From the NCBI GenBank assembly GCA_000163555.2, contig ADAC02000001.1:248001-312000 (forward strand): a stretch of DNA of 64,000 nt, written 5' to 3'. Position 1 is the first letter of the stretch. Each line of letters starts with the position of its first letter. Positions 40,332 through 56,991 of this stretch are shown here, piece after piece. The position numbers were made by a program, and so were the translations under genes. The DNA comes from an alpha proteobacterium HIMB114 (GTDB lineage Bacteria > Pseudomonadota > Alphaproteobacteria > Pelagibacterales > Pelagibacteraceae). The notes under the pieces are model-generated. The model was not told where the DNA came from, made no database searches, and saw nothing but the letters and a program-made list of their open reading frames with translations.

Positions 40332-41165
40332 TTGATTACTTTAGAAATTAATCAACTGATAACTTTGATCACAGTATTAGCCATTGCTGCTACTGCATCT
40401 GGATTTATTGCGGGTTTACTTGGTGTTGGTGGTGGAATTTTAATGGTGCCAGCTCTTTATTATGCATTTTCAACTTTAAATTTTGATGAAAATATTATTA
40501 TGCATTTATCATTAGGTACATCTTTAGCTATCATAATTCCAACATCTATAATGTCTGCCAAAACTCATTATAAATTTAACGCTGTAAATTTTGATTTAAT
40601 CAAATCATTTGGCTTGCCAGTTGTGATTGGAATTTTTATTGGAACTTTTATGGCTACCCATTTAAGAACTGTCCAACTTCTATTAATGTTTTCTATATTT
40701 TCATTTTGCGTTGGTTTATTTTTTATTTTTATAAGAGAAAAAATGGGTGAAAAACCAAAATCAGTTGGGACTTTTATTAAAAGTATCACAGGTGCTTTCA
40801 TGGGTTTTATGTCTGTTCCTCTTGGAATTGGAGGTGGTTCATTGGGAGTTCCTTTTATGAGATTATTTGGTTACCCAATAAGGGAAGCAATTGGAACCTC
40901 AGCAGCTATAGGTTTTATCATTTCATTGTTTGGCGCATCATCCATGGCTTTTAGTGGTTTGATGTTTTCTGACTTTGCTGCACCATTATCAGTTGGGTAT
41001 GTAAACATTCCAGGTTTTTTAGTATTTGTACCTGTTACAATGACAATGGCTCCTATAGGCGCTAGATTAGTTCATTCAATAGATAAAAATCTCTTGAGTA
41101 AAATATTTGGAGCATTTCTTATTATTATATCAATACGAGCTTTTATTGAGTTCTTAAACTTTTAA
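40332..41165 (+). CDS. TauE/SafE-family membrane transporter
   Basis: A 277-residue protein with eight or nine hydrophobic segments and the paired family motifs IAGLLGVGGGILMVPALYY and FMSVPLGIGGGSLGVPFMRL. The family exports sulfite, sulfoacetate or other organic anions. The start is a TTG one base after the dusA stop, the only suitable codon. The next gene is 134 bases away. Confidence 0.9.
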   Translation: MITLEINQLITLITVLAIAATASGFIAGLLGVGGGILMVPALYYAFSTLNFDENIIMHLSLGTSLAIIIPTSIMSAKTHYKFNAVNFDLIKSFGLPVVIGIFIGTFMATHLRTVQLLLMFSIFSFCVGLFFIFIREKMGEKPKSVGTFIKSITGAFMGFMSVPLGIGGGSLGVPFMRLFGYPIREAIGTSAAIGFIISLFGASSMAFSGLMFSDFAAPLSVGYVNIPGFLVFVPVTMTMAPIGARLVHSIDKNLLSKIFGAFLIIISIRAFIEFLNF

Positions 41166-41234
41166 TTACAACCATAAGTTTAAATTAAAGTATTTATTAT
41201 TTGTGAAAAAAAGTTTTTTATTAACAAACTTATA

Positions 41235-41253
41235 AGTTTAATAATATTAAACT
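41235..41253. promoter_or_regulatory. Perfect 19-bp inverted repeat, candidate IclR operator
   Basis: AGTTTAATA at 41235-41243 and its exact complement TATTAAACT at 41245-41253 flank a central A. It lies 11 bases upstream of the -35 box of the iclR promoter. A related half-site, ATAAGTTTAA, also occurs near 41173. Size and placement fit autoregulation by the IclR protein. Confidence 0.6.
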
Positions 41254-41264
41254 ATTATTTATTA

Positions 41265-41293
41265 TTGACAAACTATATTGATCTCGCTAATTT
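41265..41293 (+). promoter_or_regulatory. Promoter of the iclR gene, probably leaderless
   Basis: A consensus -35 box TTGACA (41265-41270) and TAATTT (41288-41293) are 17 bases apart. The expected transcription start, six or seven bases downstream, is at the iclR ATG (41300) itself, and no ribosome-binding site precedes the ATG. Confidence 0.65.
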
Positions 41294-41299
41294 TAAATC

Positions 41300-42094
41300 A
41301 TGTCAGTTAAATCTATATCTAAAACAATGGATACTTTAGATTATTTCTTAGAATCAGACTCATCCAAGGGTATTAGCTTAAAAGAAATTTGTGATCATTT
41401 AGGATTTAAAAAATCAGCTGCACACCACATGTTGGCTACTATTTGTGATAAAGGTTATTTGTATCAAGATTTAAAAAGTAAAAAATATTTTCTAGGATCT
41501 AAGTTAAAAAAATTTGGTGAAGTTATAGATCTAAATGCAAACTCTTTTATTAATTTTGCAGATCCATTTTTAAAAAAAATTAATGATGCTACCGGAGAAG
41601 CTGTTCATCTAGCATCTTTTGAAGGCACAAAATTAATTACCTTAAGCATGTTGGAGTCAACACATCCAGTCAGAGTCGACCATGGTTTTTTAAATAAAGA
41701 TAATGCGTTTCATGCTACAGCATCAGGTAAAGCGATGTTAGCTTATATGTCAGATGGTAGTCAAAAAAAGATTTTAAAAAATAAGTTAGAAAAATTTACG
41801 AGTTTTACAATAACAAATATAAAACAATTAAGCGAAGAACTTAAAAAAATTAAAAAAAATGGTTTTTCAACTGATGATGAAGAATTTCAACCTGGTGTAT
41901 TTTGTGTTGGTTATCCAATATTTGATAATGAAAATAAACCTTTTGCCTCGATTAGTTGTTCTTCACCAAAATTTAAAATCACATCAGATAAAAAATATTT
42001 AGATAAAATAAAAAATTCTGTGAAATTTTCTGCCCTTGAAATTGGAAAATACTTTAAACAAACTAGAAAAAAAGGAGATAAACATGCCGCGTGA
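41300..42094 (+). CDS. IclR-family transcriptional regulator
   Basis: A 264-residue protein. The N-terminal winged helix spans about residues 1-65 (LKEICDHLGFKKSAAHHMLATIC) and the C-terminal ligand-binding domain has HATASGKAMLAYM and DDEEFQPGVFCVGYPIFD. It heads the long catabolic gene cluster and overlaps the following dehydrogenase by 11 bases, so it is likely the cluster's substrate-sensing regulator and controls its own promoter. Confidence 0.93.
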   Translation: MSVKSISKTMDTLDYFLESDSSKGISLKEICDHLGFKKSAAHHMLATICDKGYLYQDLKSKKYFLGSKLKKFGEVIDLNANSFINFADPFLKKINDATGEAVHLASFEGTKLITLSMLESTHPVRVDHGFLNKDNAFHATASGKAMLAYMSDGSQKKILKNKLEKFTSFTITNIKQLSEELKKIKKNGFSTDDEEFQPGVFCVGYPIFDNENKPFASISCSSPKFKITSDKKYLDKIKNSVKFSALEIGKYFKQTRKKGDKHAA

Positions 42095-43217
42095 GAACAG
42101 TATGTTGGGACATAATCAAAAATTTGAAATCCCAAAACAAATGGGTGCATGGGTTCTTAATGATCCAAACAATATTACGATCAAAAAGAAACCTGTTCCA
42201 GAACCAAAAGAAGGAGAGGTACTTTTAAAAATCGATGCAGTTGCTATTTGTGCAACTGATTTAGAAATCATGTCCCATGGTTTACCAGCCATGATTAATG
42301 GTGAATTACCTTTTAATAAAAATTTTACCTTTGGCCATGAGGCGATGGGTACGGTTGTAAAGTTAGGTGAAGGTGTTCACGAATTTAAACCTGGTGACAG
42401 AGTATGTGTGGAAATTCATGCAGGATGTAGCAGATGTGAAATGTGTAGAAAAGGTTGGTACACTTCTTGTTTAAATTACAGTTTTACTGACAGAGGACAT
42501 AAAGCAAACGGTTTCACTACTGACGGAGCATTTGCTGAATATATGACAAATAGGACTCAAACATTAGTTAAAGTCCCAGATGGTATGTCAGATGAAGAAG
42601 CTACCCTTTGTGTAACTGCTGGAACTAGTATGTATACGCTTGATGTTATGGGTGGTTTGTATGCTGGTCAAACTATAGTGATTACTGGACCTGGTCCAAT
42701 TGGATTATGTGCAGTTGGTGTTGCAAGTGCATTGGGTGCTGAAGTTATTTTAACAGGTACAAGAGATAATAGACTTGAGATTGGTAAAAAACTTGGAGCA
42801 GCTCATGTGATAAACGTTAAAAAAGAGGATGCGGTTAAAAAAGTTAAAGAACTAACCGGTGGAATTGGTGCACACTATGTACTTGAGTGTTCTGGTGCAG
42901 AAAATGCAATTAATGACGCTTCTTCAATGATTAGAAGAGGGGGGAAAATTGGTCTTGCAGCTTTCCCTTCAAAACCTGTAACTGTTGATATTGCAAATTT
43001 GGTTAGAAATAACGCTTATATCTTTGCAACAAGAGGAGAAGGTAAATCTGCTTGTCATAGAGCAATGGCTTTAATGGCTCAAAAGCGTTTTGATGCAAAA
43101 CTAATACATACTCATACATTTCCAATGAAAGATTTGGAAACAGGTTTGAAATACACAAAAGAAAGGATCGAGGACGCTATCAAGGTTGTTGTTAGAAACG
43201 ATCAAAAATTAGCTTAA
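42084..43217 (+). CDS. Zinc-dependent medium-chain alcohol/polyol dehydrogenase
   Basis: About 377 residues from the ATG at 42084, chosen because GGAG lies 6 bases before it. Catalytic zinc ligands are Cys in AICATDLE and His-Glu in TFGHEAMG. The structural zinc site CSRCEMCRKGWYTSC is complete. The NAD loop is ITGPGPIGLCAVGVASALG. It resembles threonine/sorbitol-type dehydrogenases. In the cluster it would oxidise a hydroxyl of the imported compound; the exact substrate is unknown. Confidence 0.92.
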   Translation: MPRENSMLGHNQKFEIPKQMGAWVLNDPNNITIKKKPVPEPKEGEVLLKIDAVAICATDLEIMSHGLPAMINGELPFNKNFTFGHEAMGTVVKLGEGVHEFKPGDRVCVEIHAGCSRCEMCRKGWYTSCLNYSFTDRGHKANGFTTDGAFAEYMTNRTQTLVKVPDGMSDEEATLCVTAGTSMYTLDVMGGLYAGQTIVITGPGPIGLCAVGVASALGAEVILTGTRDNRLEIGKKLGAAHVINVKKEDAVKKVKELTGGIGAHYVLECSGAENAINDASSMIRRGGKIGLAAFPSKPVTVDIANLVRNNAYIFATRGEGKSACHRAMALMAQKRFDAKLIHTHTFPMKDLETGLKYTKERIEDAIKVVVRNDQKLA

Positions 43218-43223
43218 TATTTT

Positions 43224-44153
43224 ATGCTTAGATACGACAATTACTTTATTCCAAAGACACTCAAAGAATACTTTGAATTAACATCAAAGGTTAAAGATTG
43301 TCGTATCGTAGCAGGATGTACTGATATGTTACCTTGGGCTAGAGAGGGCCGAGGAGGCGATGTTTTTTTTAAAAACGTTGTCGATGTAAGTCGAATTAAA
43401 GAGTTAAACGTATTTAAATTTGGATCAAAAAAGATTTTATTAGGAGCTGCAACTAATTACCAAAAACTTTTTCTTGATAAAAAAATTAGAAAAAGTTTAA
43501 AAGTATTACCCCAAGTATCAGTCTGGTTTGCAGATGACCAAATTAGAGAACTTGCTACCATTGGTGGTAATATTGTTAACGCTTCTCCCGCAGGCGACGG
43601 CATGCCGGCGTTTCTAACTTTAAATACTAAAGTTACAGTTGCCTCTTTTAAAAATAAAAAAATTATTAAATTAAAAATGCCTTTAGAAAAATTTGTTAAA
43701 GGTAGAAATAAAGTTGCATTAAACAAAAATGACCTTTTAGTTGATTTTGAAGTAGAAAATACAGATGGTTATGGAGCATGCTTTGAAAAAGTTGGACACA
43801 GAAGATCTTTAGTAATTTCAACTGTGTGCGTATCTTCACTAGTAAAATTAAATAAAAATAAGTTTCAAGATGTTAGAGTTGCTGTTGGTGGGGTTTGTGA
43901 AGTTCCAACTCGATTAACTAAAACAGAAAATTTTTTAAAAGGAAAATCTATAGATGAAAATAATATTTACGTAGCTTCAAAACTAGATTTAGATGTCATT
44001 CAATCAAGATCAAGAAGAGAATATAGAAGAGAAGTTTTACAAAATTTTATCATAAGATCAATTTTAAAGTCTTTAGGAAAAACCAACATCAATGAAACAA
44101 TTCAGAAATTCGACAACAAAATAGAACTAAAAATGGAGGATGCTCATGTCTAG
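43224..44153 (+). CDS. FAD-binding subunit of a xanthine-dehydrogenase-family enzyme (CoxM/XdhB type)
   Basis: A 309-residue protein with the FAD loops IVAGCTDMLPWA and the second FAD motif IRELATIGGNIVNASPAGDGMPAFLTLN (about residues 109-136), and a CODH-FAD C-terminal domain (DVRVAVGGVCEVPTRLTKTE). It carries electrons between the iron-sulfur subunit and the acceptor. Its last 8 bases overlap the next gene, whose ribosome-binding site GGAGG is inside it. Confidence 0.93.
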   Translation: MLRYDNYFIPKTLKEYFELTSKVKDCRIVAGCTDMLPWAREGRGGDVFFKNVVDVSRIKELNVFKFGSKKILLGAATNYQKLFLDKKIRKSLKVLPQVSVWFADDQIRELATIGGNIVNASPAGDGMPAFLTLNTKVTVASFKNKKIIKLKMPLEKFVKGRNKVALNKNDLLVDFEVENTDGYGACFEKVGHRRSLVISTVCVSSLVKLNKNKFQDVRVAVGGVCEVPTRLTKTENFLKGKSIDENNIYVASKLDLDVIQSRSRREYRREVLQNFIIRSILKSLGKTNINETIQKFDNKIELKMEDAHV

Positions 44154-46023
44154 TATGGAATTAAAATTAACAGTTAATGGACAAAAAATTAAAAAAACAA
44201 CACAATCTCATTACCGATTATTAGATTTTTTAAGAGAAGATTTGGATTTAACTGGAAGCAAAGAGGGATGCGGTGCAGGCGAGTGTGGAACGTGTTCAGT
44301 TTTTATCAATGGTAAATTAGTTAAAAGTTGTCTTGTACCTGCTGCAAAAGCGGAAGGTGCAAAAATTGAGACAGTTGAAGGTATTGGCAATCCTGAGAAA
44401 ATGTCAGAAATTCAAAAAGCTTTCTGCGCTACGGGTGCTAGCCAATGTGGATTTTGTATACCAGGTATGGTGATGGCAGCGACATCAACTTTGAGAAATA
44501 ATCCAAAAGCGAGCTTAGAACAAATTAAAGAAGAAATGGGCGGCAATATCTGTAGATGCACTGGATATCAAAAAATCTTTGATGCGGTTGAGATGGCAAG
44601 AGACGTTATTAATAAAGAAAAATCAGAAAAAGTATTTGAGGAGTATGACAAACCAGCAAATTCTTTTATTGGCGCAAATGTAAAAAGAATTGATGCTCCA
44701 AGCAAAGTTACTGGAAGATTAAAATATGCAGCAGATATGAAGATGCCAAACATGCTTCATATGCAGGTTTTAAGAAGTGATAGACCTCATGCGAAAATTT
44801 TAAATATCGATTTATCAAAAGCAAAAAAAATTGAAGGAGTAAGAGGAATTGTAACATGCGATGATGTTCCAGGAATTGATAACTTTGGAGTTTTCATCGA
44901 AGATCAACCCGTCTTAGCAAAAGATAAAGTAAGATACGTTGGTGAAGCTATTATTGCTGTAGCTGCGGATACACTTGAACAAGCAAAAGATGCGGTAAAT
45001 GCAATTAAAATCAAATACAAAGATCTTCCAGCGCTATATGATCCTGAAGAGGCGTTGAAGGAAAAGATTTTAATTCATGAGCATTATAAAACTAATTTAG
45101 TAAAACACATTCCAATTAGAAAAGGTAATACTGAAGAAGCTTTTAAAAAAGCCGATGTGGTTATTGAAGATGAATTTGCAACTCAGCCTGTCGAGCACGC
45201 ATATTTGGAACCAATGGCAGGAGTATCTTACATTGATCAAGATGGTGTTTTAACAATTGTTTCTCCGAGCCAAAATATCACTCATCACCGACATATGATG
45301 GCAAAAATTATGAATCTTCCAATTCATAAAGTTAGATTCATTATGTCTCCAGTTGGTGGTGGTTTTGGAGGTAAAGAAGATATGATTTACCAAGGAATGT
45401 TAGCTTTATTAGCAACAAAAACTAGACAACCAATTAAATATGTAATGACAAGAGAAGAAGATATTGTTTCTACAGCCAAAAGACACCCAAGTCGAACGAA
45501 GTACAAAATGGGTCTTACAAAAGCGGGTAGAATTCTTGCAGCAGAAATTAGTATGTTAGCTGATGGAGGTGCTTATGGTTGTTCAACAGAAGGTGTAATG
45601 AGAAAGGCTGCTATACTAGGAGCTGGTCCTTATAATATCGAGAATTTAAAAATGGATACGCGTGGAGTTTATACCAATAATACTCCAAGCGGTGCATTTA
45701 GAAGCTTCGGAGCTTTGCAAACTGAGTTTGCTACAGAGTCGATGTTAGATATTGCAGCAGAAAAGTTAAATATGGATCCTTTTGAAATTAGAAGAATTAA
45801 TGCCTTTGTAAAAGGAAATATAACTCACACAAAACAAGAATTAAATTCAGCTAGTATTAATACTGTTCTTAATGAGTTAGAAAAATTAGCTAGTTGGGAA
45901 AAAGGCTCTCCTCAATCAAGAGGTAATTCAAGAAAAGATATGTTCAGTAAAGATAACCGAGATGCATGTGAACTTGGAGCTAGATTAAAAACAAACGGAA
46001 ATGGCAAGAGGGTCGCAAGATGA
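44146..46023 (+). CDS. Fused [2Fe-2S] subunit and first half of molybdopterin subunit
   Basis: About 625 residues from the ATG at 44146 (GGAGG six bases upstream). Residues 1-160 are the two-cluster iron-sulfur subunit (GCGAGECGTCSVFINGKLVKSC, then CGFCIPGM and ICRCTGYQK). Residues 170-625 are the molybdopterin subunit up to the first cofactor-binding domain (VGGGFGGKED, SGAFRSFGALQTEFATESML). The remainder of that subunit is a separate gene downstream. In relatives these parts are split differently, CoxS being separate and CoxL one chain. Confidence 0.92.
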   Translation: MSSMELKLTVNGQKIKKTTQSHYRLLDFLREDLDLTGSKEGCGAGECGTCSVFINGKLVKSCLVPAAKAEGAKIETVEGIGNPEKMSEIQKAFCATGASQCGFCIPGMVMAATSTLRNNPKASLEQIKEEMGGNICRCTGYQKIFDAVEMARDVINKEKSEKVFEEYDKPANSFIGANVKRIDAPSKVTGRLKYAADMKMPNMLHMQVLRSDRPHAKILNIDLSKAKKIEGVRGIVTCDDVPGIDNFGVFIEDQPVLAKDKVRYVGEAIIAVAADTLEQAKDAVNAIKIKYKDLPALYDPEEALKEKILIHEHYKTNLVKHIPIRKGNTEEAFKKADVVIEDEFATQPVEHAYLEPMAGVSYIDQDGVLTIVSPSQNITHHRHMMAKIMNLPIHKVRFIMSPVGGGFGGKEDMIYQGMLALLATKTRQPIKYVMTREEDIVSTAKRHPSRTKYKMGLTKAGRILAAEISMLADGGAYGCSTEGVMRKAAILGAGPYNIENLKMDTRGVYTNNTPSGAFRSFGALQTEFATESMLDIAAEKLNMDPFEIRRINAFVKGNITHTKQELNSASINTVLNELEKLASWEKGSPQSRGNSRKDMFSKDNRDACELGARLKTNGNGKRVAR

Positions 46024-47036
46024 GTTTAACAAAAAAAAGAGGAAGAGGAGTAGCTGCGTCTTGGTACGGAATAGCAAGAACTGCTGCAATGGATCAAGCT
46101 GGTGCATGGGCAGAAATTGACGATGGTGGATCAGCAAAAATATCAACTGGTGTTACAGAAATTGGAGAGGGTATTTTAACAGTTTTAGCTCAGGTAGCCG
46201 CAGATGAATTAGGGGTTAAACCTGAAAACGTAATGATCGGTGAAAACGATACCTCAAGAAGTCCAGAGGCTGCACATGCTGGAGCTACGAGACAAACTTA
46301 CATGATTGGAAATGCAGTTGCTTTAGCTTGCAGAGGGGCAAGGCAAAAATTATTCGATGTCATGGCAAAAGAGTGGAAGGTGGATGCGAATACGATCAAA
46401 GCGCATAACGGTGAAATTTGGAGCGAGGGAACAAATTACAAAATGGAAATGAGTGAATCTATTCATATTTGCAAAAAAAAATATGGTGTGATCCCAGTTG
46501 CTGGAGAGAATTATACATCTCATCATACAGGTTTAGATCCAGTTGATGGCTCAGGCCGTCCATGGCAAGCATATGTTTTTGGTGGCCAAGTTGCTGAAGT
46601 TGAAGTTGATACCGCTACGGGTGAGGTGCAGTTACTTGGAATTTGGGCGTGCCACGATGTTGGCAAAGCAATTAACCCAAAAGGTGTAGAGGGCCAAATT
46701 GAAGGTGGCGTTGTTCAGGCTGTCGGACAAGCTTTGATGGAAAATTATGAATTAGAAAAAGGAAGAACTAAATCTGGAAGTTTTGCAAAATATATTTTGC
46801 CAACTTCATTAGATGTTCCAAAAGTAACATCAAAAATTGTTGAGGATCCAGATCCTCTCAGTCCTTTAGGAGCAAAAGGAATCGGTGAACCTGCAATGGT
46901 TCCAACTTCTCCAGCAATCATGAATGCCATTTATGATGCTATTGGAGTTAGAATTAAATCATTACCAGCGACACCTGAAAAAATCTTAAACGCTCTTAAG
47001 GAGAAGAAGCAAAACGGAAGTCGTAAATTTAATTAG
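46020..47036 (+). CDS. C-terminal half of molybdopterin-binding subunit
   Basis: A 338-residue protein corresponding to the second molybdopterin-binding domain (MoCoBD_2). It starts with RGRGVAASWYGIARTAAMDQ, has the STGVTEIGEGILTVLAQVAADEL cofactor segment and the catalytic Glu in AKGIGEPAMVPTSPAI. It overlaps the preceding gene by 4 bases (ATGA), the usual arrangement for coupled translation, and the break falls in the linker between domains. A sequencing frameshift is therefore less likely than a real gene split. Confidence 0.92.
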   Translation: MSLTKKRGRGVAASWYGIARTAAMDQAGAWAEIDDGGSAKISTGVTEIGEGILTVLAQVAADELGVKPENVMIGENDTSRSPEAAHAGATRQTYMIGNAVALACRGARQKLFDVMAKEWKVDANTIKAHNGEIWSEGTNYKMEMSESIHICKKKYGVIPVAGENYTSHHTGLDPVDGSGRPWQAYVFGGQVAEVEVDTATGEVQLLGIWACHDVGKAINPKGVEGQIEGGVVQAVGQALMENYELEKGRTKSGSFAKYILPTSLDVPKVTSKIVEDPDPLSPLGAKGIGEPAMVPTSPAIMNAIYDAIGVRIKSLPATPEKILNALKEKKQNGSRKFN

Positions 47037-47068
47037 GTTTAAATTTACACTAAACACAAGGGGGAAAA

Positions 47069-48046
47069 ATGAAACTAACAAAAAAAATCGTAGGAGCTTT
47101 AGCTGCAATTACTTTATTGTTTGCTGGCGCATCTACAAACTCTTTTGCAGGAAGTCATTCAAAATTCCCAAGTAAAACTATAGAAATGACAGTTTTATTT
47201 GGTGGTACTGCAAAAAGTGTTGGACAACTAGTTGCTAAAGGTCTTGAAAAAAATCTTGGTGGAACAGTTGTTCCAGTATCTAGACCAGGTGGTGGTGGAG
47301 CTGTTGGATATAAATATATTCAGTCACGACCAGCATCAGGTTATGATATTGTATGGAATTCGAACTCTGTGAGCACGTCTCACCATAGAGGTAGAACTTC
47401 ATTTAATTACAAAGCATTTACTCCAATTGCGGCAATGTCAATTGAAGTTCCTGTTCTAGCTGTAAAATCAGGCACATTTAATTCTGTTAAAGAATTAGCT
47501 GATTATGCAAAAAAGAATCCTGGAAAATTAAAAGTTGGTATCAGTGGTAAAGGTGCTTTTACACATTTAACTTCTGCTATTATCTTTGATACTTTGGGTG
47601 CAAAAGTTACTTATATTCCATACGGAAAAGGTAAAGCGCCTGCAGAACTTTTAGCTGGAAGAATTGATGCTGCTGTTCAATGGCCTGGTCAATTTAGATC
47701 TTTTCATAAAGCTGGTCAGCTAAAAATGTTAGCTGTTACTAGTCAGGAGAGAATTGCATCTGACTCTAGCATTCCTACTATGAAGGAACTTGGTTACAAA
47801 AAAGTTGATGTAACTATGTGGAGAGGGTTAGCAGCTAAAAAAGGAACTCCTAAAGCTCAAATTAAAGCTTTAGAAAAAGCTGCTGAAGCTTATGCTAATA
47901 GCGCAGAATTTAAAGCTGCGTCTAAAAAAATCGGATTTACAATTAATTACTTAAACTCAAAACAGTTTGGTAAGCAAATTGCAAAAGACGATAAAAAAAT
48001 CAAGAAACTTATGAAGGATCTTGGTTTAGCAAAAAAAGCTAAATAA
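47069..48046 (+). CDS. tctC: TTT transporter solute-binding protein (TctC family)
   Basis: A 325-residue periplasmic protein with a signal peptide (LAAITLLFAGASTNSFAG, cleavage near residue 28). The Bug/TctC fold follows: VPVSRPGGGGAVGYKYI and GKLKVGISGKGAFTHLTSAI. A GGGGGA ribosome-binding site precedes it. It binds a carboxylate-bearing solute for the tripartite tricarboxylate transporter next to it. The 32-base gap after the molybdenum enzyme shows they are in one transcript. Confidence 0.94.
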   Translation: MKLTKKIVGALAAITLLFAGASTNSFAGSHSKFPSKTIEMTVLFGGTAKSVGQLVAKGLEKNLGGTVVPVSRPGGGGAVGYKYIQSRPASGYDIVWNSNSVSTSHHRGRTSFNYKAFTPIAAMSIEVPVLAVKSGTFNSVKELADYAKKNPGKLKVGISGKGAFTHLTSAIIFDTLGAKVTYIPYGKGKAPAELLAGRIDAAVQWPGQFRSFHKAGQLKMLAVTSQERIASDSSIPTMKELGYKKVDVTMWRGLAAKKGTPKAQIKALEKAAEAYANSAEFKAASKKIGFTINYLNSKQFGKQIAKDDKKIKKLMKDLGLAKKAK

Positions 48047-48054
48047 ATTTTCAA

Positions 48055-48522
48055 ATGAGAGAAAGCAAGTTCTATCTATTCTTAGGATTGGGTGTTCTTG
48101 CTTTCTCAATCATTTGGATCACATTGGTTTTTTTTCAAATAGAGGGTGATTTGGGTGGCTATGCTAATACACCCAGAACCATCCCATTTTTTCTAGGAAT
48201 ATGTATGTCTATTTTAGGGTTAGTATTTTTGTATCAATATAAAGTTGGCTATGTTCCAAAAAATAAAGCAAACCCATTACAAAAAAATGAAATTAGAAAT
48301 ATCATATTTTGTTTAATTGTATTCATTTCGTATTCTTATTTATTAAAGTACTTTGGTTTTTTAATTTCAACTCCAATCGTTGTTTTTTTTATTACAAGAT
48401 TTTTACTTGGCGAAAAAAATTGGAAACTTAACTATTTATTTCCAATAGCCATGACTGGATTAATTTATTTTATCTTCATAATATTATTAAAATCTTCATT
48501 ACCAAGAGGTGAAATTTTTTAA
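48055..48522 (+). CDS. tctB: TTT transporter small membrane subunit (TctB family)
   Basis: A 155-residue protein with four hydrophobic helices, typical of TctB. It lies 8 bases after tctC and overlaps tctA by one base. The sequence is poorly conserved in this family, so the call rests on length, topology and position. Confidence 0.9.
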   Translation: MRESKFYLFLGLGVLAFSIIWITLVFFQIEGDLGGYANTPRTIPFFLGICMSILGLVFLYQYKVGYVPKNKANPLQKNEIRNIIFCLIVFISYSYLLKYFGFLISTPIVVFFITRFLLGEKNWKLNYLFPIAMTGLIYFIFIILLKSSLPRGEIF

Positions 48523-50048
48523 TGGAAAATTTAATTACAGCTCTTGGTTTAATTGGAACCTTTGAGGTAATGATTGCAATCTCAATCGGTGCATTTGCTG
48601 GAATTATATTTGGTGCAATTCCAGGACTTACATATTCAATGGCACTTGCATTAATGCTTCCTTTTACGTTTACAATGGAGCCCGTAACAGCAATATCATT
48701 ATTACTTGCAACTTATATTGGTGGAATGACAGGTGGATCAATCTCTGCAATTTTAATCGGTATCCCAGGAACTCCATCTGCGGCCGCAACTGTTTCTGAT
48801 GGTTACTCACTAACTAAAAAAGGCGATGCAAGTATTGCGTTAGGAACAGCAGTTATAGTCTCAACTATTGGCGGTTTTATAAGTCTTGTTATTATGATTG
48901 TGCTCGTTGATTTTATTTCACAGTTTGCAATTAAATTTGGCCCTGCTGAAATTTTCATGTTGGTATTATTTGGTTTTTCTACGATATGTGGTCTTTCAGA
49001 AAGATCATTATTTAGGGGTCTAGTTGCTGGTGTTCTAGGTTTAATGCTTATGACAATAGGTACTGATGAGATTGAAGGAATATCAAGGTTTACATTTGGT
49101 AGTACACAAATGTTACAGGGAGTGAATTTATTAGTTGCAATGATTGGTTTATTTGCTGTTCCACACATTTTAGAAGTTTTTAATTTAAGACTAAACAGAG
49201 AGGACAAAACTAACTTTGAAGTCGATATTGTTAAAACAAAGTTACCAAGTTTTGCATTATTAAAAAAATACTTTAATTTAATGTTAAGGTGTGTAGGTCT
49301 TGGTACTTCAATAGGTGCAATCCCAGGATCAGGAGGACCAATCGCTGCGTTTTTAGCTTATTCTCATGCAAAAAATTCAGAAAAAAATCCTGAAGAAAAA
49401 GAAAAGTACGGTAAAGGTCATATTGGTGGAGTTGTAGCTCCAGAGACGGCAAACAATGCAGTAACTGGCGGAGCTATGGTCCCATTGTTATCACTTGGGA
49501 TTCCTGGTGATCCAGCAACAGCCATTATTTTAGGAGGATTGTTAATTCATGGTCTTTCACCTGGACCAATGTTATTTATTGAAAATGCACCTCAAGTTTA
49601 TTCCATTTATCTAGCAATATTAATTGCATATCTTGTTGTTTTTATTTTTCAGGTAAATTTCATTAAACATATTGTAAAAATCTTAAAGGTCAAACCACAT
49701 CATTTAGGAGTAGGTATTTTAGTAATGGTGATTGTTGGATCTTATGCAATCAGAAACTCTTTTTTAGATGTTAATGTCATGATTTTGATGGGTTTAATAG
49801 GTTATTTTTTTAATCGTATTCAATTACCTGTAACACCTATTGTTCTTGGAATGGTTTTGGGAAAAACTATTGAAAGTGAATACCGTACAGCAATGTCTCT
49901 TTCAGCTGGTGATCCCACAATATTTTTTAGCTCTGTTGTTAGTTTGTTATTTTTTGGATTAATTATTCTAACTATAGCGCTTCAAATTAAAAAAAGAATG
50001 CAAGATGTAAAAAAACAAAAACAACTTAAGGAGCAAGTGCAAATATGA
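48522..50048 (+). CDS. tctA: TTT transporter large membrane subunit (TctA family)
   Basis: A 508-residue protein with about 11 or 12 helices and both TctA signature halves, FGAIPGLTYSMALALMLPFTF with GGSISAILIGIPGTPSAAATVSDG, and GAIPGSGGPIAAFLAYSHAK with GGAMVPLLSLGIPGDPATAIILGG. It imports the TctC-bound carboxylate. It overlaps the ThDP-enzyme gene by 4 bases. Confidence 0.96.
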   Translation: MENLITALGLIGTFEVMIAISIGAFAGIIFGAIPGLTYSMALALMLPFTFTMEPVTAISLLLATYIGGMTGGSISAILIGIPGTPSAAATVSDGYSLTKKGDASIALGTAVIVSTIGGFISLVIMIVLVDFISQFAIKFGPAEIFMLVLFGFSTICGLSERSLFRGLVAGVLGLMLMTIGTDEIEGISRFTFGSTQMLQGVNLLVAMIGLFAVPHILEVFNLRLNREDKTNFEVDIVKTKLPSFALLKKYFNLMLRCVGLGTSIGAIPGSGGPIAAFLAYSHAKNSEKNPEEKEKYGKGHIGGVVAPETANNAVTGGAMVPLLSLGIPGDPATAIILGGLLIHGLSPGPMLFIENAPQVYSIYLAILIAYLVVFIFQVNFIKHIVKILKVKPHHLGVGILVMVIVGSYAIRNSFLDVNVMILMGLIGYFFNRIQLPVTPIVLGMVLGKTIESEYRTAMSLSAGDPTIFFSSVVSLLFFGLIILTIALQIKKRMQDVKKQKQLKEQVQI

Positions 50049-51928
50049 CTTCATTAAAAGCAGTTGAACAAAGAGCTAAAATAATTGCGAAAAACAATAA
50101 TGATTTAAATCAATGTATTGATAAAAATGCTTTGCCTAAAAATATTGATGTTTCATTATCAGAGGGGATAGTTTTAGGTTTTTTAAAACAAAATGTTAGA
50201 AAATATTTTGCTATCTTTGGTCATGGCTCAACTGACTTTGCAGAAATTTTGAGAATTTATGAAGAGCAAGGTGTTACTAAAACATATAATTTTAGAAATG
50301 AAGTTGAAATGGCGCATGCAGCTACAGCTTTACGTTGGCAATATAATGAAGTCCCAGCAGTTGTGACATCAATAGGACCTGGCGCTTTACAAGCTATGGC
50401 CGGATCACTTGCCGCTTCTTCAAATGGTGTTGGTTTGTATCATATCTATGGTGATGAAACGACTCATGGAGAAGGTTATAACATGCAACAAGTTCCTAAA
50501 AGAGAACAGGATATCTACGGCAAAATAACTGCTCTCATGTCAGAGTCGCATGTTTTTCATACTCCAGAGTCTATAAGAGATGCGATGAGAAAAGGATATT
50601 TAAAAACAAAACATCCTTATAAAGCCGGACCGTTTTATTTTATGTTACCTATTAATACTCAACCAAAAGTTATTAAAGGATTGAATTTAATAACATTACC
50701 AGGAAGAGACAGTTTAGAATTAAAAAACAATTTAAATGATAATCAAGTAGAAGCATTTGAAAAAATTATAAATAAGTATGAAAATATTGTTATCAAAGCA
50801 GGCGGTGGATCTGTAAAGTTTTCAAAAGAACTTACAGAATTTTCAGAACATCTCAACGCTCCTGTAGTTTTAGCACCAGGAAGTTTAGGTATTTTACCAG
50901 ATGCTCATGAAAACAATATGCATGTTGGAGGCAGCAAAGGTTCAATTTCTGGAAATTACGCTATGCAGAATGCAAAATTATTAATTTCAATTGGCTCTAG
51001 GTCTGTATGCCAATCAGATTGTTCAGGAATTGGTTACCCTAATGCTGAGACTGTAATTAATATTAACGCAGATCTATCTGACATGATGCATTATAATAAT
51101 ACATTAGGATTAAATGGCGATATTGGTGTTATTTTAAAACAGCTTAATTCCGCATTAAAATCAAAAAAAATTAATAGATCGAATACCAAAAAAAATTGGA
51201 TTGAAGATTGTAGAAAAAAGAAAAAAGAGTGGAATGATTTCAAAAGTAGAATTTATCAAAATGAAGTTTTAAAAGACGATGCCTTTGGCAGAGATTTACT
51301 CACTCAGCCTGCCGCAATAAAGACTGCAGTTGATTTTTCAAATAAAAATAAGTGCGTAAAATTTTTTGATGCGGGTGATGTACAGGCAAATGGTTTTCAA
51401 ATTGCTGAAGATAACGAGCCTTCAGATACATACACTGAAACAGGCGCATCTTACATGGGATTTTCAGCTAGTGCCATACTAGCATCGGCGATTGCAGATA
51501 AACCAAAATACCCAATTAGTTTTACAGGAGATGGATCTTTTATGATGAATCCTCAGGTCTTAATTGATGCAGTTTATTTAGGATTAAAAGGAATGGTTGT
51601 TATTTTTGACAATAGAAGAATGGCTGCAATTACTGGTCTTCAATATGCTCAATATGAAAAAGAATTCAAAACTAATGACGGGGTTGAAGTTGACTATGTT
51701 CAAATGGCAAATTCAGTAAAAGGCGTGAAAGGATTTTTTGGTGGTTATAATTCCAAAGAGTTTAATGCAGCATTAGAGGAAGCATATAAATTTGATGGAC
51801 TATCTGTAGTTCATGTTCCTGTTTATAGCGGTACAGATGAGTTAGGTGGTATGGGGGCATACGGATCTTGGAATGTTGGAAATTGGTGTGAAAATGTTCA
51901 AGCTGAATATGCAAAACAAAAAATTTAA
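50045..51928 (+). CDS. Thiamine-diphosphate-dependent enzyme (IolD/acetolactate-synthase-like)
   Basis: A 627-residue ThDP enzyme. The catalytic Glu86 lies in NFRNEVEMAHAA, a central domain covers about 230-380, and the ThDP-binding motif opens with G495-D496-G497 and ends near VVIFDNRRMAAI. The size and the DNRRMAAITGLQYAQY segment are closer to IolD (a C-C hydrolase of the inositol pathway) than to acetolactate synthase, but other inositol genes are absent. It probably cleaves or joins C-C bonds next to a carbonyl of the cluster's substrate. Confidence 0.85.
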   Translation: MTSLKAVEQRAKIIAKNNNDLNQCIDKNALPKNIDVSLSEGIVLGFLKQNVRKYFAIFGHGSTDFAEILRIYEEQGVTKTYNFRNEVEMAHAATALRWQYNEVPAVVTSIGPGALQAMAGSLAASSNGVGLYHIYGDETTHGEGYNMQQVPKREQDIYGKITALMSESHVFHTPESIRDAMRKGYLKTKHPYKAGPFYFMLPINTQPKVIKGLNLITLPGRDSLELKNNLNDNQVEAFEKIINKYENIVIKAGGGSVKFSKELTEFSEHLNAPVVLAPGSLGILPDAHENNMHVGGSKGSISGNYAMQNAKLLISIGSRSVCQSDCSGIGYPNAETVININADLSDMMHYNNTLGLNGDIGVILKQLNSALKSKKINRSNTKKNWIEDCRKKKKEWNDFKSRIYQNEVLKDDAFGRDLLTQPAAIKTAVDFSNKNKCVKFFDAGDVQANGFQIAEDNEPSDTYTETGASYMGFSASAILASAIADKPKYPISFTGDGSFMMNPQVLIDAVYLGLKGMVVIFDNRRMAAITGLQYAQYEKEFKTNDGVEVDYVQMANSVKGVKGFFGGYNSKEFNAALEEAYKFDGLSVVHVPVYSGTDELGGMGAYGSWNVGNWCENVQAEYAKQKI

Positions 51929-51942
51929 ATAGAAAGGTTATC

Positions 51943-53379
51943 ATGTACGAAAATTTAGGAAATTTTATTGAGGGTAAATGGTCTAATAATACAAAAGATA
52001 AAGTTGAAGTATTCAATCCTTTTAATGAAGAAGTTCTTGGAACTATTCCTTCATCTACTGAAAAAGAATTAGATGAAGCTTTAAATTCTGCAAAACAAGC
52101 CATGGAAAGTTGGAAAAAAACTTCTCCATGGGAAAGATCAAAGATAATAAAAAAAATTGCAGATTTAATAAGGGAAAGAGCAGATGACATTGCTAATATA
52201 ATGACCCTTGAAACAGGTAAGCCTTTGGCTGAAGCTAAAGGAGAAACAATGGCATCCGCAGATCAATTTGAATGGTTTTCTGAGGAGACCAAAAGAATTT
52301 ATGGACAGTTAATTGAGTCAAGAACTCAAGATACTCGTTTACAAGTGAGATATGAACCTGTTGGGGTTGTTGCTGCATTTAGCGCGTGGAACTTTCCAGC
52401 ACTACTACCGGCGCGAAAAATTGCAGCCTCAATTGCTGCTGGATGCTCAGTCATTGTAAAACCAGCTAGTGAAACACCAGGTACTTGCATGGAAGTCATC
52501 AAGGCGTGCCATGATGCAGGAATACCAAAAGGCGTAGTAAACTTTGTTACTGGCAAGTCTGGTTTTATTTCAAAATATTTAATTCAATCTCCAGTAATTA
52601 AAAAAGTATCTTTAACGGGATCAGTTGAAGTTGGAAAAGAAATTTTAAAAATGGCCGCAGAAGGTATCAAAAAAGTATCTATGGAGTTAGGAGGGCATGC
52701 TCCAGTCTTAGTCTATGATGATACAGATGTTGATTATGCTGCAACCACATGTTCCAATACAAAATTTAGGAATTGTGGTCAGGTTTGTATTTCGCCTACT
52801 CGTTTTTATGTACAGGAAAAAATTTACGATGAATTTTGTAAAAAATTTACAGAGAACACAAAAAAACTTAAATTAGGAAATGGACTTGATCCAGATACAA
52901 ATATTGGACCAATGGCAAATAAAAGGGGACTAGATCATATTGATAAACTTGTAAGAGATGCTGAAAATAAAGGAGCTGAAATTCTTACAGGAGGTTCACC
53001 AAGTAAAAAATTTAACAAAGGCTTTTTTTATGAACCAACGGTATTAAAAAATGTACCTGATGATGCCGATATTCTTTCAGTAGAACCTTTTGGTCCAGTT
53101 GCGCCAATAATAAAAGTTACAGATGAGAGTAAAATCTTTGAAATGGCAAATAGTACAAACTTTGGTTTGGCTGGATATGTATTTACTTCGTCTTTAAAAA
53201 GAGCACATGTGGCATCAGAAAATTTAGAAGTAGGCATGGTTGGGGTTAATGATATGTTGTTAGCATCTGCTGAAATACCTTTCGGAGGTGTAAAAGAATC
53301 AGGATTTGGTAGAGAAGGTGGATCACTCGGTATTTTAGATTACCTTGTTCCTAAATATACAAAATTTAAAATTTATTAA
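51943..53379 (+). CDS. NAD(P)-dependent aldehyde dehydrogenase
   Basis: A 478-residue ALDH of normal length. Asn in the AFSAWNFPALLPARKIA block, Glu in SMELGGHAPV and the catalytic Cys in FRNCGQVCISPTRFYV are all present. It is similar to semialdehyde dehydrogenases (succinate or 2-oxoglutarate semialdehyde). In this cluster it would turn an aldehyde made by the ThDP enzyme or dehydratase pathway into an acid. It overlaps the dehydratase gene by one base. Confidence 0.94.
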   Translation: MYENLGNFIEGKWSNNTKDKVEVFNPFNEEVLGTIPSSTEKELDEALNSAKQAMESWKKTSPWERSKIIKKIADLIRERADDIANIMTLETGKPLAEAKGETMASADQFEWFSEETKRIYGQLIESRTQDTRLQVRYEPVGVVAAFSAWNFPALLPARKIAASIAAGCSVIVKPASETPGTCMEVIKACHDAGIPKGVVNFVTGKSGFISKYLIQSPVIKKVSLTGSVEVGKEILKMAAEGIKKVSMELGGHAPVLVYDDTDVDYAATTCSNTKFRNCGQVCISPTRFYVQEKIYDEFCKKFTENTKKLKLGNGLDPDTNIGPMANKRGLDHIDKLVRDAENKGAEILTGGSPSKKFNKGFFYEPTVLKNVPDDADILSVEPFGPVAPIIKVTDESKIFEMANSTNFGLAGYVFTSSLKRAHVASENLEVGMVGVNDMLLASAEIPFGGVKESGFGREGGSLGILDYLVPKYTKFKIY

Positions 53380-55088
53380 TGGCAAAAAAAATCAAAGACC
53401 AAGGAATTGACAAAAGTCTCACAAATTATGGAGACAAAGAGTTTTCTTCATATCTAAGAAGATCTTTTGCTAGATCGATGGGGTACACAACCGAGTCTTT
53501 AAATAAACCAATTGTTGGTATCGTAAATACTGCAAGTGGATTAAATAGTTGCCATAGACATTTTCCAGAAATGATCGAGGCTTTAAAAAGAGGTATTCAA
53601 AGCCAAAATTGTTTAGGGGTTGATTTTCCAGTCATATCATTAGGAGAAGTTTATTTATCACCAACTAGTATGATGTTTAGAAACTTAATGTCTATGGATG
53701 TTGAAGAAATGATTAGGGCGCAGCCAGTAGACGTTGTTGTATTGCTTGGAGGTTGTGACAAAACTTTACCAGCAATGATCATGGGGGCAATTTCTGCAGG
53801 CAAACCTTATGTTGTTATGCCAGCTGGTCCAATGATTACAAATAAATATGAAAATGAGAGATTAGGCGCGTGTACTGATTGTAGAAGATATTGGGGAAAA
53901 TATCGAGGAGGAGAGATTTCTGATCAAAAAATAAAAGAAGTAGAAGGTAAGTTGGCGGCGAGTTCTGGAACATGTGCAGTTATGGGAACTGCAAGTACCG
54001 TAGCATGTCTTGTGGAAACCATGGGTTTATGTTTGCCAGATGCTTCAAGTGTTCCTGCAGTATATTCTGAAAGGTTAAAGTTAGCCGAACAAACAGGAGA
54101 AGTTGCAGCAAAAATAGCAAACAAAAAAATTAAAAAGATAAAAAAAATTAATGAAAAAGATATTTATAATGCCTTAGTGGTTCTTTTAGCGTTAGGTGGA
54201 TCAACTAATGCTATTGTTCACTTAACTGCTATTGCGGGAAGAGCTGGAATAAATATTGATCTTAAAAAATTTAACCAAATAAGTAACAAAACACCTGTTC
54301 TCGTAAATTTAAAGCCAACAGGAAGTTATTATATGGAAGATTTTTATCATGCAGGTGGAATGAAAGTTGTTTTAAAAGAACTTCAAAGTTTATTAAAAAA
54401 AGAAACTTTCACAATTGAAGGTAAAAAACTAAGTTCAGTGATAAAAGAAAACTCTAATTGTTTTCATGATCAAGAAGTTATCAGATCAAAAAAGAAGCCT
54501 TTTGAAAAACAAGGTGGCTTAGTTTCATTATTTGGAAACATTTGCCCTAAAGGCGCAATATTAAAAAGATCAGCAGCTGATAAAAAATTGTTTGAAAAAA
54601 CAGGAACTGCTTTTGTATTTGAAGACATTAAAGAAATGACAAAAAAAATTGATAATCCAAAACTAAAAATTACTAAAGATGATATTCTAGTACTTAAAAA
54701 TATTGGACCAAAAACAATTTATGGCATGCCAGAAGCCGGTTATCTTCCTATCCCAAAAAAAATATTAAAAAGTGGTGTAAAAGATATGATTAGAATTTCA
54801 GATGGAAGAATGAGTGGCACTGCATTTGGAACAATTATTCTTCATGTTTCTCCAGAATCAGCGGTTGGAGGACCATTTTCAATTTTAAAAACAGGTGATA
54901 AAATTAAGTTAAGTGTAAAAAATAAATCTTTAAATGTTTTGTTATCAAAGAAAGAATTAGAAAAAAGGCTCAAGAATACAAAAATCAAAGCGCCAATAAT
55001 TAAAAGAGGATATTTAAAACTTTATTACGACACTGTTTTGCAGGCAGATGAAGGTTGTGATTTTGATTTTTTAAAATATAAGAAATAA
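53379..55088 (+). CDS. IlvD/Edd-family dehydratase, pentonate-dehydratase-like
   Basis: A 569-residue [2Fe-2S] dehydratase. Cys58 (NSCHR), Cys126 (GGCDKT) and Cys199 (GTCAVMGTASTVA) fall one position from the cluster cysteines of Rhizobium L-arabinonate dehydratase (59, 127, 200, from memory). The DGRMSGTAFGTIILHVSPE region, with the catalytic Ser, also resembles sugar-acid dehydratases more than IlvD. It likely removes water from a sugar acid. It is the last catabolic gene; the small rhodopsin-linked gene starts two bases later. Confidence 0.9.
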   Translation: MAKKIKDQGIDKSLTNYGDKEFSSYLRRSFARSMGYTTESLNKPIVGIVNTASGLNSCHRHFPEMIEALKRGIQSQNCLGVDFPVISLGEVYLSPTSMMFRNLMSMDVEEMIRAQPVDVVVLLGGCDKTLPAMIMGAISAGKPYVVMPAGPMITNKYENERLGACTDCRRYWGKYRGGEISDQKIKEVEGKLAASSGTCAVMGTASTVACLVETMGLCLPDASSVPAVYSERLKLAEQTGEVAAKIANKKIKKIKKINEKDIYNALVVLLALGGSTNAIVHLTAIAGRAGINIDLKKFNQISNKTPVLVNLKPTGSYYMEDFYHAGGMKVVLKELQSLLKKETFTIEGKKLSSVIKENSNCFHDQEVIRSKKKPFEKQGGLVSLFGNICPKGAILKRSAADKKLFEKTGTAFVFEDIKEMTKKIDNPKLKITKDDILVLKNIGPKTIYGMPEAGYLPIPKKILKSGVKDMIRISDGRMSGTAFGTIILHVSPESAVGGPFSILKTGDKIKLSVKNKSLNVLLSKKELEKRLKNTKIKAPIIKRGYLKLYYDTVLQADEGCDFDFLKYKK

Positions 55089-55090
55089 TA

Positions 55091-55261
55091 ATGAATTTTA
55101 AATCTTTAGCACCAGTTGGTTTTTTAGTCCTAGCAATTTTAGCTATCATTTTACCAAAGGATATTTTTACGGCAATTTTGATTTTTTTGATGATTTTAAG
55201 TGGAGTAATCGCAATTTATACAAATTTAGATATTTTTGATGACATCGAAAGGGATAAATAA
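55091..55261 (+). CDS. 56-residue two-helix membrane protein preceding the rhodopsin
   Basis: A small frame from ATG 55091 to TAA 55261, where TAATG makes it overlap the rhodopsin start by one base. It encodes two hydrophobic segments (VGFLVLAILAIILP and FTAILIFLMILSGVIAIYT) and an acidic end (DIFDDIERDK). Such overlap normally means coupled translation with the rhodopsin. I recognise no family. It could be a partner subunit, an assembly factor or an unrelated passenger. Confidence 0.65.
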   Translation: MNFKSLAPVGFLVLAILAIILPKDIFTAILIFLMILSGVIAIYTNLDIFDDIERDK

Positions 55262-56010
55262 TGAATGTATTAGGATTAGTAACATCTTACACTTTTGAGT
55301 TTGCTCTTATTACAATGATAGCAGCGACAATTTATTTTTTACTTGAGAGATACAGATTAAGTGACGAATATAAACCAGTTTCAACTTTTGCAATTTTAAC
55401 TACTTCACTTGCTGTCATCGAGTATTTTAATATGAGAGAGTTTTTTACTATAGAAAACTTATCAAAACCTGATTTAAATTTTCCAACAGAATATAGGTAC
55501 ATAACCTGGTTAATCGCTACACCGATAATGCTTTATACGTATTTTGTTTTAACGAAGCTAAGTAGATACGCAAAACCAATAGTGATTTTAACAATTAGTT
55601 TAAATTTTTTAATGATTGTCTCAGGTTATTTTTCAGAAAGTGCATATTCTAATGGTTGGATGCCGATGGTCTCAGGCACTTATGTATTTTCGTATTTTTT
55701 ATTTGGAGTAGGTATGGCTTGTTGGGTTGGAATTATCTATATCTTTATCAAAGTTTTGCCTGGCCATGTTGTAAAAGTTAATGATCAAAGAAATTCAGAT
55801 TATTGTTTAAAATGTTTGGGCTTTGTACAAAAATTAATTATTTATGGATGGGCAATTTATCCTTTGGGTCTTTTTGTATCCTTTTGGGATGGTGCATCTG
55901 ACACTGCTTTAATGAGGGAAATGATTTATAACTTTGGTGACTTGTTTAATAAAGTCGGGTTTGCATTAATTTGTTTTTCTTGTGCAAAAAAACTATCAAA
56001 AAAATCTTAA
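55261..56010 (+). CDS. TAT-type microbial rhodopsin
   Basis: A 249-residue seven-helix retinal protein. The retinal lysine is Lys231 in GDLFNKVGFAL. In helix C the proteorhodopsin proton-pump residues Asp, Thr, Glu are Thr82, Ala86 and Thr93 (RYITWLIATPIMLYTYF). Glu54 and Asp227 are present. This pattern matches the TAT rhodopsin described from SAR11 strain HIMB114, reported as a UV-dependent pH sensor with calcium binding, not a pump. Without the counterion Asp97 and donor Glu108 equivalents, ordinary proton pumping is unlikely. It overlaps a small membrane protein upstream. Confidence 0.93.
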   Translation: MNVLGLVTSYTFEFALITMIAATIYFLLERYRLSDEYKPVSTFAILTTSLAVIEYFNMREFFTIENLSKPDLNFPTEYRYITWLIATPIMLYTYFVLTKLSRYAKPIVILTISLNFLMIVSGYFSESAYSNGWMPMVSGTYVFSYFLFGVGMACWVGIIYIFIKVLPGHVVKVNDQRNSDYCLKCLGFVQKLIIYGWAIYPLGLFVSFWDGASDTALMREMIYNFGDLFNKVGFALICFSCAKKLSKKS

Positions 56011-56016
56011 AAAATA

Positions 56017-56991
56017 TTAAGGGATAAAAATTGCAGGACCAAGCAGTTTCCTTGCGTGCAAATCTTCATGAGCTTTTTGAGCTTCGTCAAGAGAATATTT
56101 ATGTGCAATATTTATTTTAATTTTACCTTCTTTCATCGCAGTAAATACCCTATCAGCAGAAAGTTCTAATTCTGGTCGTGTAGCCGTATAAGGCATAACA
56201 GATGGTCTTGTAAAAAAGATAGCTTTAGGTGCTAAATGTTTTTTGACATCAAGATTTGCCACCATACCAGAAGCATTACCAAATGATAAAAACATTCCTC
56301 TTAATTTAATTGCTTCTAAAGATTTTTCAAAAGTACTTAATCCAACACCATCGTAGACAGCATCAACACCTTTGCCGTTTGTTATTTCCAAAACTTCTTT
56401 GGCAAAGTCTTGAGTGGAATAATTGATAACATGATCGCAACCATTTTTTTTTGCAATCTCAACTTTTTCATCTGATCCAACAGTACCAATTAAAGTACAG
56501 CCAATCGCTCTAGCCCATTGACAAAAAATTTGACCAACGCCACCTGCCGCAGCATGGTAAAGTATTGTATCATCCTTAGTCACTTTATAGGCTCTATGAA
56601 GTAAATATTCGCATGTCATGCCTTTTAACGTAATAGCGCCCGCATCTTCAAAACTAATCTCTTTAGGTACTTTTACTAATTTAGCCTCTGGCATCACTTG
56701 CATTTCTGAGTATGCGCCAATTGGCATTGAAGCGTGTGATACATGATCACCAACTTTTAAAAGTTTAACATTAGATCCAATTTCTTTCACAATCCCAGCA
56801 GCTTCTAAACCAATTCCAGATGGAAGTGGAATGGGGTAAAGCCCTGATCTGTGATAAGTATCAATAAAGTTTAAGCCAATAGATTTATTTTCAACTAGAA
56901 CTTCGTTGGCTTGTAATTTAGGAGTATCTTTATTTGTTATTTTTAGAACTGAAGGGTCACCAAATTCTGTAATTTCCACGACTTTAACCAT
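56017..56991 (-). CDS. NADPH:quinone oxidoreductase-like protein (zeta-crystallin type)
   Basis: A 324-residue medium-chain reductase without zinc ligands. It starts with ITEFGDPSVLKI, with SIGLNFIDTYHRSGLYP near residue 55 and the NADPH loop HAAAGGVGQIFCQWARAIG near 145. These match quinone oxidoreductase 1 (QorA). It reduces quinones or enone-type compounds in the cytoplasm. It is convergent with the rhodopsin and follows the Gate-domain gene by 6 bases. Confidence 0.92.
   Translation of the reverse strand: MVKVVEITEFGDPSVLKITNKDTPKLQANEVLVENKSIGLNFIDTYHRSGLYPIPLPSGIGLEAAGIVKEIGSNVKLLKVGDHVSHASMPIGAYSEMQVMPEAKLVKVPKEISFEDAGAITLKGMTCEYLLHRAYKVTKDDTILYHAAAGGVGQIFCQWARAIGCTLIGTVGSDEKVEIAKKNGCDHVINYSTQDFAKEVLEITNGKGVDAVYDGVGLSTFEKSLEAIKLRGMFLSFGNASGMVANLDVKKHLAPKAIFFTRPSVMPYTATRPELELSADRVFTAMKEGKIKINIAHKYSLDEAQKAHEDLHARKLLGPAIFIP

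Follow-up and report, generated by a model that had tools for sequence, protein, structure and literature searches.

A conserved two-helix membrane miniprotein encoded directly before a TAT rhodopsin gene at the end of a Tct-type transport and catabolic cassette in SAR11 bacteria

HtrI and HtrII, the transducers of haloarchaeal sensory rhodopsins, are encoded directly before their rhodopsins and are co-expressed with them. Other membrane complexes contain small accessory proteins, such as KdpF, CydX and AcrZ. The published TAT rhodopsin comes, we presume, from the SAR11 strain HIMB114. This SAR11 protein (Kataoka 2021; Sugimoto 2022/2024) is known to us through citations in PMC9601134, PMC11931529 and PMC12046560. 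Its photochemistry has been studied, and PMC11931529, citing Sugimoto et al., gives E54 and D227 as its calcium-binding residues; the literature covered gives no physiological role. No operon partner for it was noticed in these three articles, and the original papers may mention an upstream ORF. A 2023 survey (PMC10030771) includes HIMB114 among the members of SAR11 subclade IIIa that carry a second copy of rhodopsin. A non-pumping heliorhodopsin encoded together with a transporter, the ABC transporter OmrDE, has been found to modulate that transporter (PMC11109279).

We analysed a 64-kb stretch of DNA (hereafter the window) containing an ORF at 55,091 to 55,261 on the forward strand, stop codon included, which consists of 56 codons followed by TAA and encodes a 56-residue product, MNFKSLAPVGFLVLAILAIILPKDIFTAILIFLMILSGVIAIYTNLDIFDDIERDK. 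The preliminary description had presented it as a two-helix membrane protein with an acidic tail that shares one base with a downstream rhodopsin gene in TAATG, and the sequence confirmed this. Two hydrophobic stretches are present, with 19-residue Kyte-Doolittle means reaching 2.4 and 2.7, followed by the acidic tail. AlphaFold2, given only two sequences, predicted a hairpin formed by helices 3-20 and 23-55 with a mean pLDDT of 88.8; two-helix hairpins are an easy prediction. Hydropathy and the predicted model thus agree on two transmembrane helices. Positive charges favour a topology with both ends in the cytoplasm, by just two or three to one, and the acidic tail, which continues the second helix, is probably cytoplasmic.

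The claim that the miniprotein is undescribed held: it had no significant match in Pfam (above the cut-off), NCBIfam, PHROGs or the PDB sequences, and belongs to no described family matched in these collections. A Foldseek search with the model was uninformative (E above 5), and identity with a known family was rejected. No similarity was found to the other proteins of the window, TctB included, and the phages and viral contigs searched contained no match. As no close relative of the rhodopsin was present on plasmids or viral contigs either, a phage, plasmid or viral origin was discarded.

The downstream gene (55,261 to 56,010, forward strand) encodes a 249-residue protein that matches the Pfam family Bac_rhodopsin (PF01036, E 6.6e-31) and conserves the retinal lysine, K231. 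Its assignment to the TAT type proved correct. In an alignment with the proteorhodopsin of the same genome (718,322 to 718,975 of the genome), helix C carries T82, A86 and T93 where the latter has D, T and E. E54 and D227, the residues implicated in the calcium and pH response, bear the same numbers as in the published TAT rhodopsin (cf. PMC11931529), as does T82, which is named in the title of an article on a mutant of that protein. For a rhodopsin of this type, UV- and pH-dependent photochemistry without pumping would be expected. E54 and D227 are present in all four orthologous rhodopsins identified (see below), and the T-A-T motif recurs in G007 and G014. The rhodopsin of G018 (L004, 1501-2235) reads T-A-I instead of T-A-T, RYITWLIATPLMLYIFF, and retains E54 and D227.

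We determined the distribution of both genes among 397 genomes of the family. TAT-type rhodopsins were found in four of them (G000, G007, G014 and G018) with E values of 1e-90 or better, the remaining rhodopsin matches being ordinary and proteorhodopsin-like, at about 1e-26 or weaker. The miniprotein occurred in the same four genomes, which represent three genera, with E values of at most 5e-24, the next match being at 1e-3, and in each it directly preceded the rhodopsin gene. The expectation that the ORF would accompany TAT rhodopsins was thereby borne out. No further significant match was found in the family set, and among 172 genomes from the class none was convincing; family matches at E 0.001 or worse, as well as a weak match in G527 (E 7e-4, interrupted by two stops), were dismissed as noise. 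Neither gene occurred without the other in the 397 family or 172 class genomes, so that none of these separates the rhodopsin from its gene neighbourhood, and no lone rhodopsin was found in 297 genomes of the order.

The three other orthologues have the same length and position and are 89, 82 and 79% identical to the protein of the window. Their pN/pS values of 0.08-0.23, with synonymous sites near saturation (pS 0.57-0.76), agree with the purifying selection that had been anticipated. Ratios were similar for the neighbouring enzymes and TctA (0.08-0.24) and higher for the rhodopsin (0.28-0.38); percent identities followed the same pattern, the miniprotein resembling the enzymes and TctA (79-91%) and the rhodopsin being far lower (57-69%). 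These values indicate that purifying selection on the miniprotein is strong, and stronger than on the rhodopsin. The idea that the ORF is fortuitous and has no product retains virtually no probability in the face of same-length orthologues in three genera and of these pN/pS values, and was rejected; judged by its conservation, the ORF is clearly a genuine gene for a selected, small inner-membrane protein. Across the four sequences 39 of the 56 residues are invariant. An invariant run of 11 residues at the hairpin turn was within chance given this overall conservation (p 0.19), and we do not regard it as special. Variation in helix 1 is confined to one face (p about 0.04, a weak test with four sequences), and no such pattern was seen in helix 2 of the same sequences. 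The pattern in helix 1 slightly supports the packing of its other face against a protein, but it could reflect packing on helix 2 instead.

The arrangement of the genes suggested that their translation is linked. The last A of the miniprotein stop codon (position 55,261) is also the A of the rhodopsin ATG, and the junctions measure -1, -1, +2 and +3 nt across the four genomes; neither in the window nor in L031 can the two ORFs be read as one continuous frame. On the other side, only 2-3 nt separate the stop codon of the dehydratase gene from the start of the miniprotein gene in all four genomes, and no clear ribosome-binding site precedes this start. The last codons of the miniprotein gene contain GAAAGGGA or GAGAGGGA in every genome, with an invariant AGGGA near the 3' end. 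In the window, this corresponds to AAGGGA at 55,249 to 55,254 (forward strand, within codons 53-55), placed 7 nt before the rhodopsin ATG; the spacing is 11-13 nt in G018 and G014. Arg54 is encoded by AGG in all four genomes, a codon that accounts for 9-18% of the arginine codons in neighbouring genes. AGGGA is therefore likely to be the Shine-Dalgarno site of the rhodopsin gene, in which case some of the constraint on the E-R-D tail may act at the level of DNA rather than of protein. The coupling put forward in the preliminary description gained from this putative site, but the overlap itself lost its specificity: six other junctions of the operon overlap by 1-14 nt, so that TAATG is ordinary here.

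What had been missed is that the two genes close a longer series. The miniprotein and rhodopsin genes are the 12th and the 13th and last of a same-strand run headed by an IclR-family regulator (41,300 to 42,094, forward strand, as are all the genes of the run). This is followed by a Zn-dependent dehydrogenase (42,084 to 43,217), three ORFs for subunits of a Mo-hydroxylase of the xanthine dehydrogenase family (43,224-44,153, 44,140-46,023 and 46,020-47,036), a tripartite tricarboxylate-type transporter encoded in the order TctC, TctB, TctA (47,069 to 50,048), a thiamine-diphosphate enzyme whose nearest models, IolD and acetolactate synthase, score below their cut-offs (50,045 to 51,928), an aldehyde dehydrogenase resembling succinate-semialdehyde dehydrogenase (51,943 to 53,379), and a sugar-acid-type dehydratase of the IlvD/EDD family, PRK06131 subfamily (53,379 to 55,088), which stops 2 nt before the miniprotein ATG. 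The broad dehydratase subfamily is the sole NCBIfam model that a cassette enzyme matches above its cut-off. The large subunit of the Mo-hydroxylase (44,140-47,036) is divided between two ORFs that overlap by 4 nt, the first of them fused to a 2Fe-2S domain, and is also split in G007 and G014. The enzyme set suggests that the cassette handles oxidised sugar- or cyclitol-like acids. The two membrane protein genes at its end are the only ones without an evident role in transport or catabolism.

Comparison of filled and empty sites indicated that the cassette is gained or lost as a whole. It extends on the forward strand from 41,166 to 56,016, between genes for a YfcA-like permease (40,332-41,165) and a quinone-oxidoreductase-like protein (56,017-56,991). 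These two border genes abut in G003, G005 and G036, with no cassette between them, and the flanking genes of G003 are 95-98% identical to those of the window. The same site is occupied by the cassette in G007 and G014, and the gene order is identical in these two genomes and in the covered part of G018. The dehydratase orthologue occurs in the same four of the 397 genomes as the miniprotein and the rhodopsin. Because the cassette comes and goes as a block, with the dehydratase equally restricted to these four genomes, co-occurrence does not single out the rhodopsin as the partner of the miniprotein. Several local irregularities were observed: the regulator gene of G007 (L094, 1227-2022) seemingly lies in two overlapping frames, which points to a frameshift or an assembly error; the border permease gene of G014 (L115, 4231-5070) is split into two frames in the assembly; and G014 has an extra LysE-like exporter gene (L091, 4868-5455), absent from the window, which separates the quinone-oxidoreductase-like gene from the membrane protein gene that follows.

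We considered the possibility that the miniprotein acts as a transducer. Like HtrI and HtrII, it has two membrane helices, the second predicted to continue into the tail, and its gene directly precedes, and is probably co-expressed with, that of a presumed non-pumping rhodopsin. Yet it is only 56 residues long, has no Pfam match and lacks a HAMP or MCP signalling domain. Moreover, no MCP signalling domain (PF00015) was found in the four rhodopsin-bearing genomes or two relatives, while the controls were positive. A classical taxis transducer of the Htr/MCP kind, one of the roles proposed earlier, is thus unlikely and was set aside, and a sensory rhodopsin in these six genomes would need a partner of another kind. 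The miniprotein also resembles KdpF, CydX and AcrZ in being a short hydrophobic protein, here with a larger membrane protein as its candidate partner; it differs from that type in having two helices.

The likeliest explanation, to which we give a probability of roughly 45%, is that the miniprotein is a small accessory subunit that packs against the TAT rhodopsin. This preference follows from the constant adjacency of the two genes, from their probable translational coupling, and from the fact that both products are membrane proteins without a place in the route of transport and catabolism. Ribosomes leaving the dehydratase gene would be fed onto the miniprotein gene, and the ribosome-binding site in its 3' end would ensure that both membrane proteins are made together. 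The hairpin, its second helix continuing into the acidic tail, might then stabilise the rhodopsin or relay a light-, pH- or calcium-dependent change to a further membrane protein encoded by the cassette, for which the TctA/TctB permease is a candidate. The main counter-evidence is the rate of evolution: conservation of the miniprotein is close to that of TctA and the enzymes, and the rhodopsin has diverged much further, which would fit a partner evolving more slowly than the rhodopsin. The earlier proposal of a rhodopsin partner is therefore retained for its adjacency in four of four genomes, and weakened by the 13-gene context and the identical distribution of the dehydratase.

The same rate argues for a role as an accessory subunit of TctCBA or as a membrane anchor for the enzymes of the cassette, with the position before the rhodopsin reflecting operon order only. 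This would also account for the shared presence and absence of the miniprotein, the dehydratase and the whole block, and for the start of the miniprotein gene 2-3 nt after the dehydratase in all four genomes. We nevertheless consider it doubtful: three enzyme genes separate the miniprotein from TctA, whereas the rhodopsin adjoins it in every genome; the miniprotein is not similar to TctB, of which the cassette has its own; and three components suffice in other Tct systems. An arrangement in which the miniprotein bridges the rhodopsin and TctA/TctB, so that the light, pH or calcium state modulates uptake, is unlikely. The transporter, miniprotein and rhodopsin do belong to one operon in the three genomes whose coverage reaches that far, and heliorhodopsin with OmrDE offers a precedent; that precedent, however, concerns a different rhodopsin family and a different class of transporter, and includes no miniprotein. 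Finally, the ribosome-binding site within the ORF and the overlap, or near overlap, of stop and start would suit an ORF that is mainly a translated leader, whose membrane-targeting peptide serves for coupling: it would draw ribosomes to the membrane and start translation of the rhodopsin. We regard this as very improbable, since the 39 invariant residues combined with nearly saturated synonymous sites point to selection on the whole protein.

The 2023 survey describes as unclear what the second rhodopsin copy in SAR11 subclade IIIa implies (PMC10030771). The miniprotein provides a candidate membrane partner for TAT rhodopsin. Firmer than this partnership is the genetic context of TAT rhodopsin, whose gene closes a cassette for Tct transport and catabolism headed by an IclR regulator. 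It is conceivable, if decidedly unlikely, that a rhodopsin sensing light, pH and calcium acts through a dedicated miniprotein on the co-encoded Tct-type transporter, making the uptake of one specific organic acid light-tuned. If true, this would represent a new form of rhodopsin signalling in SAR11, operating without kinases or taxis proteins.
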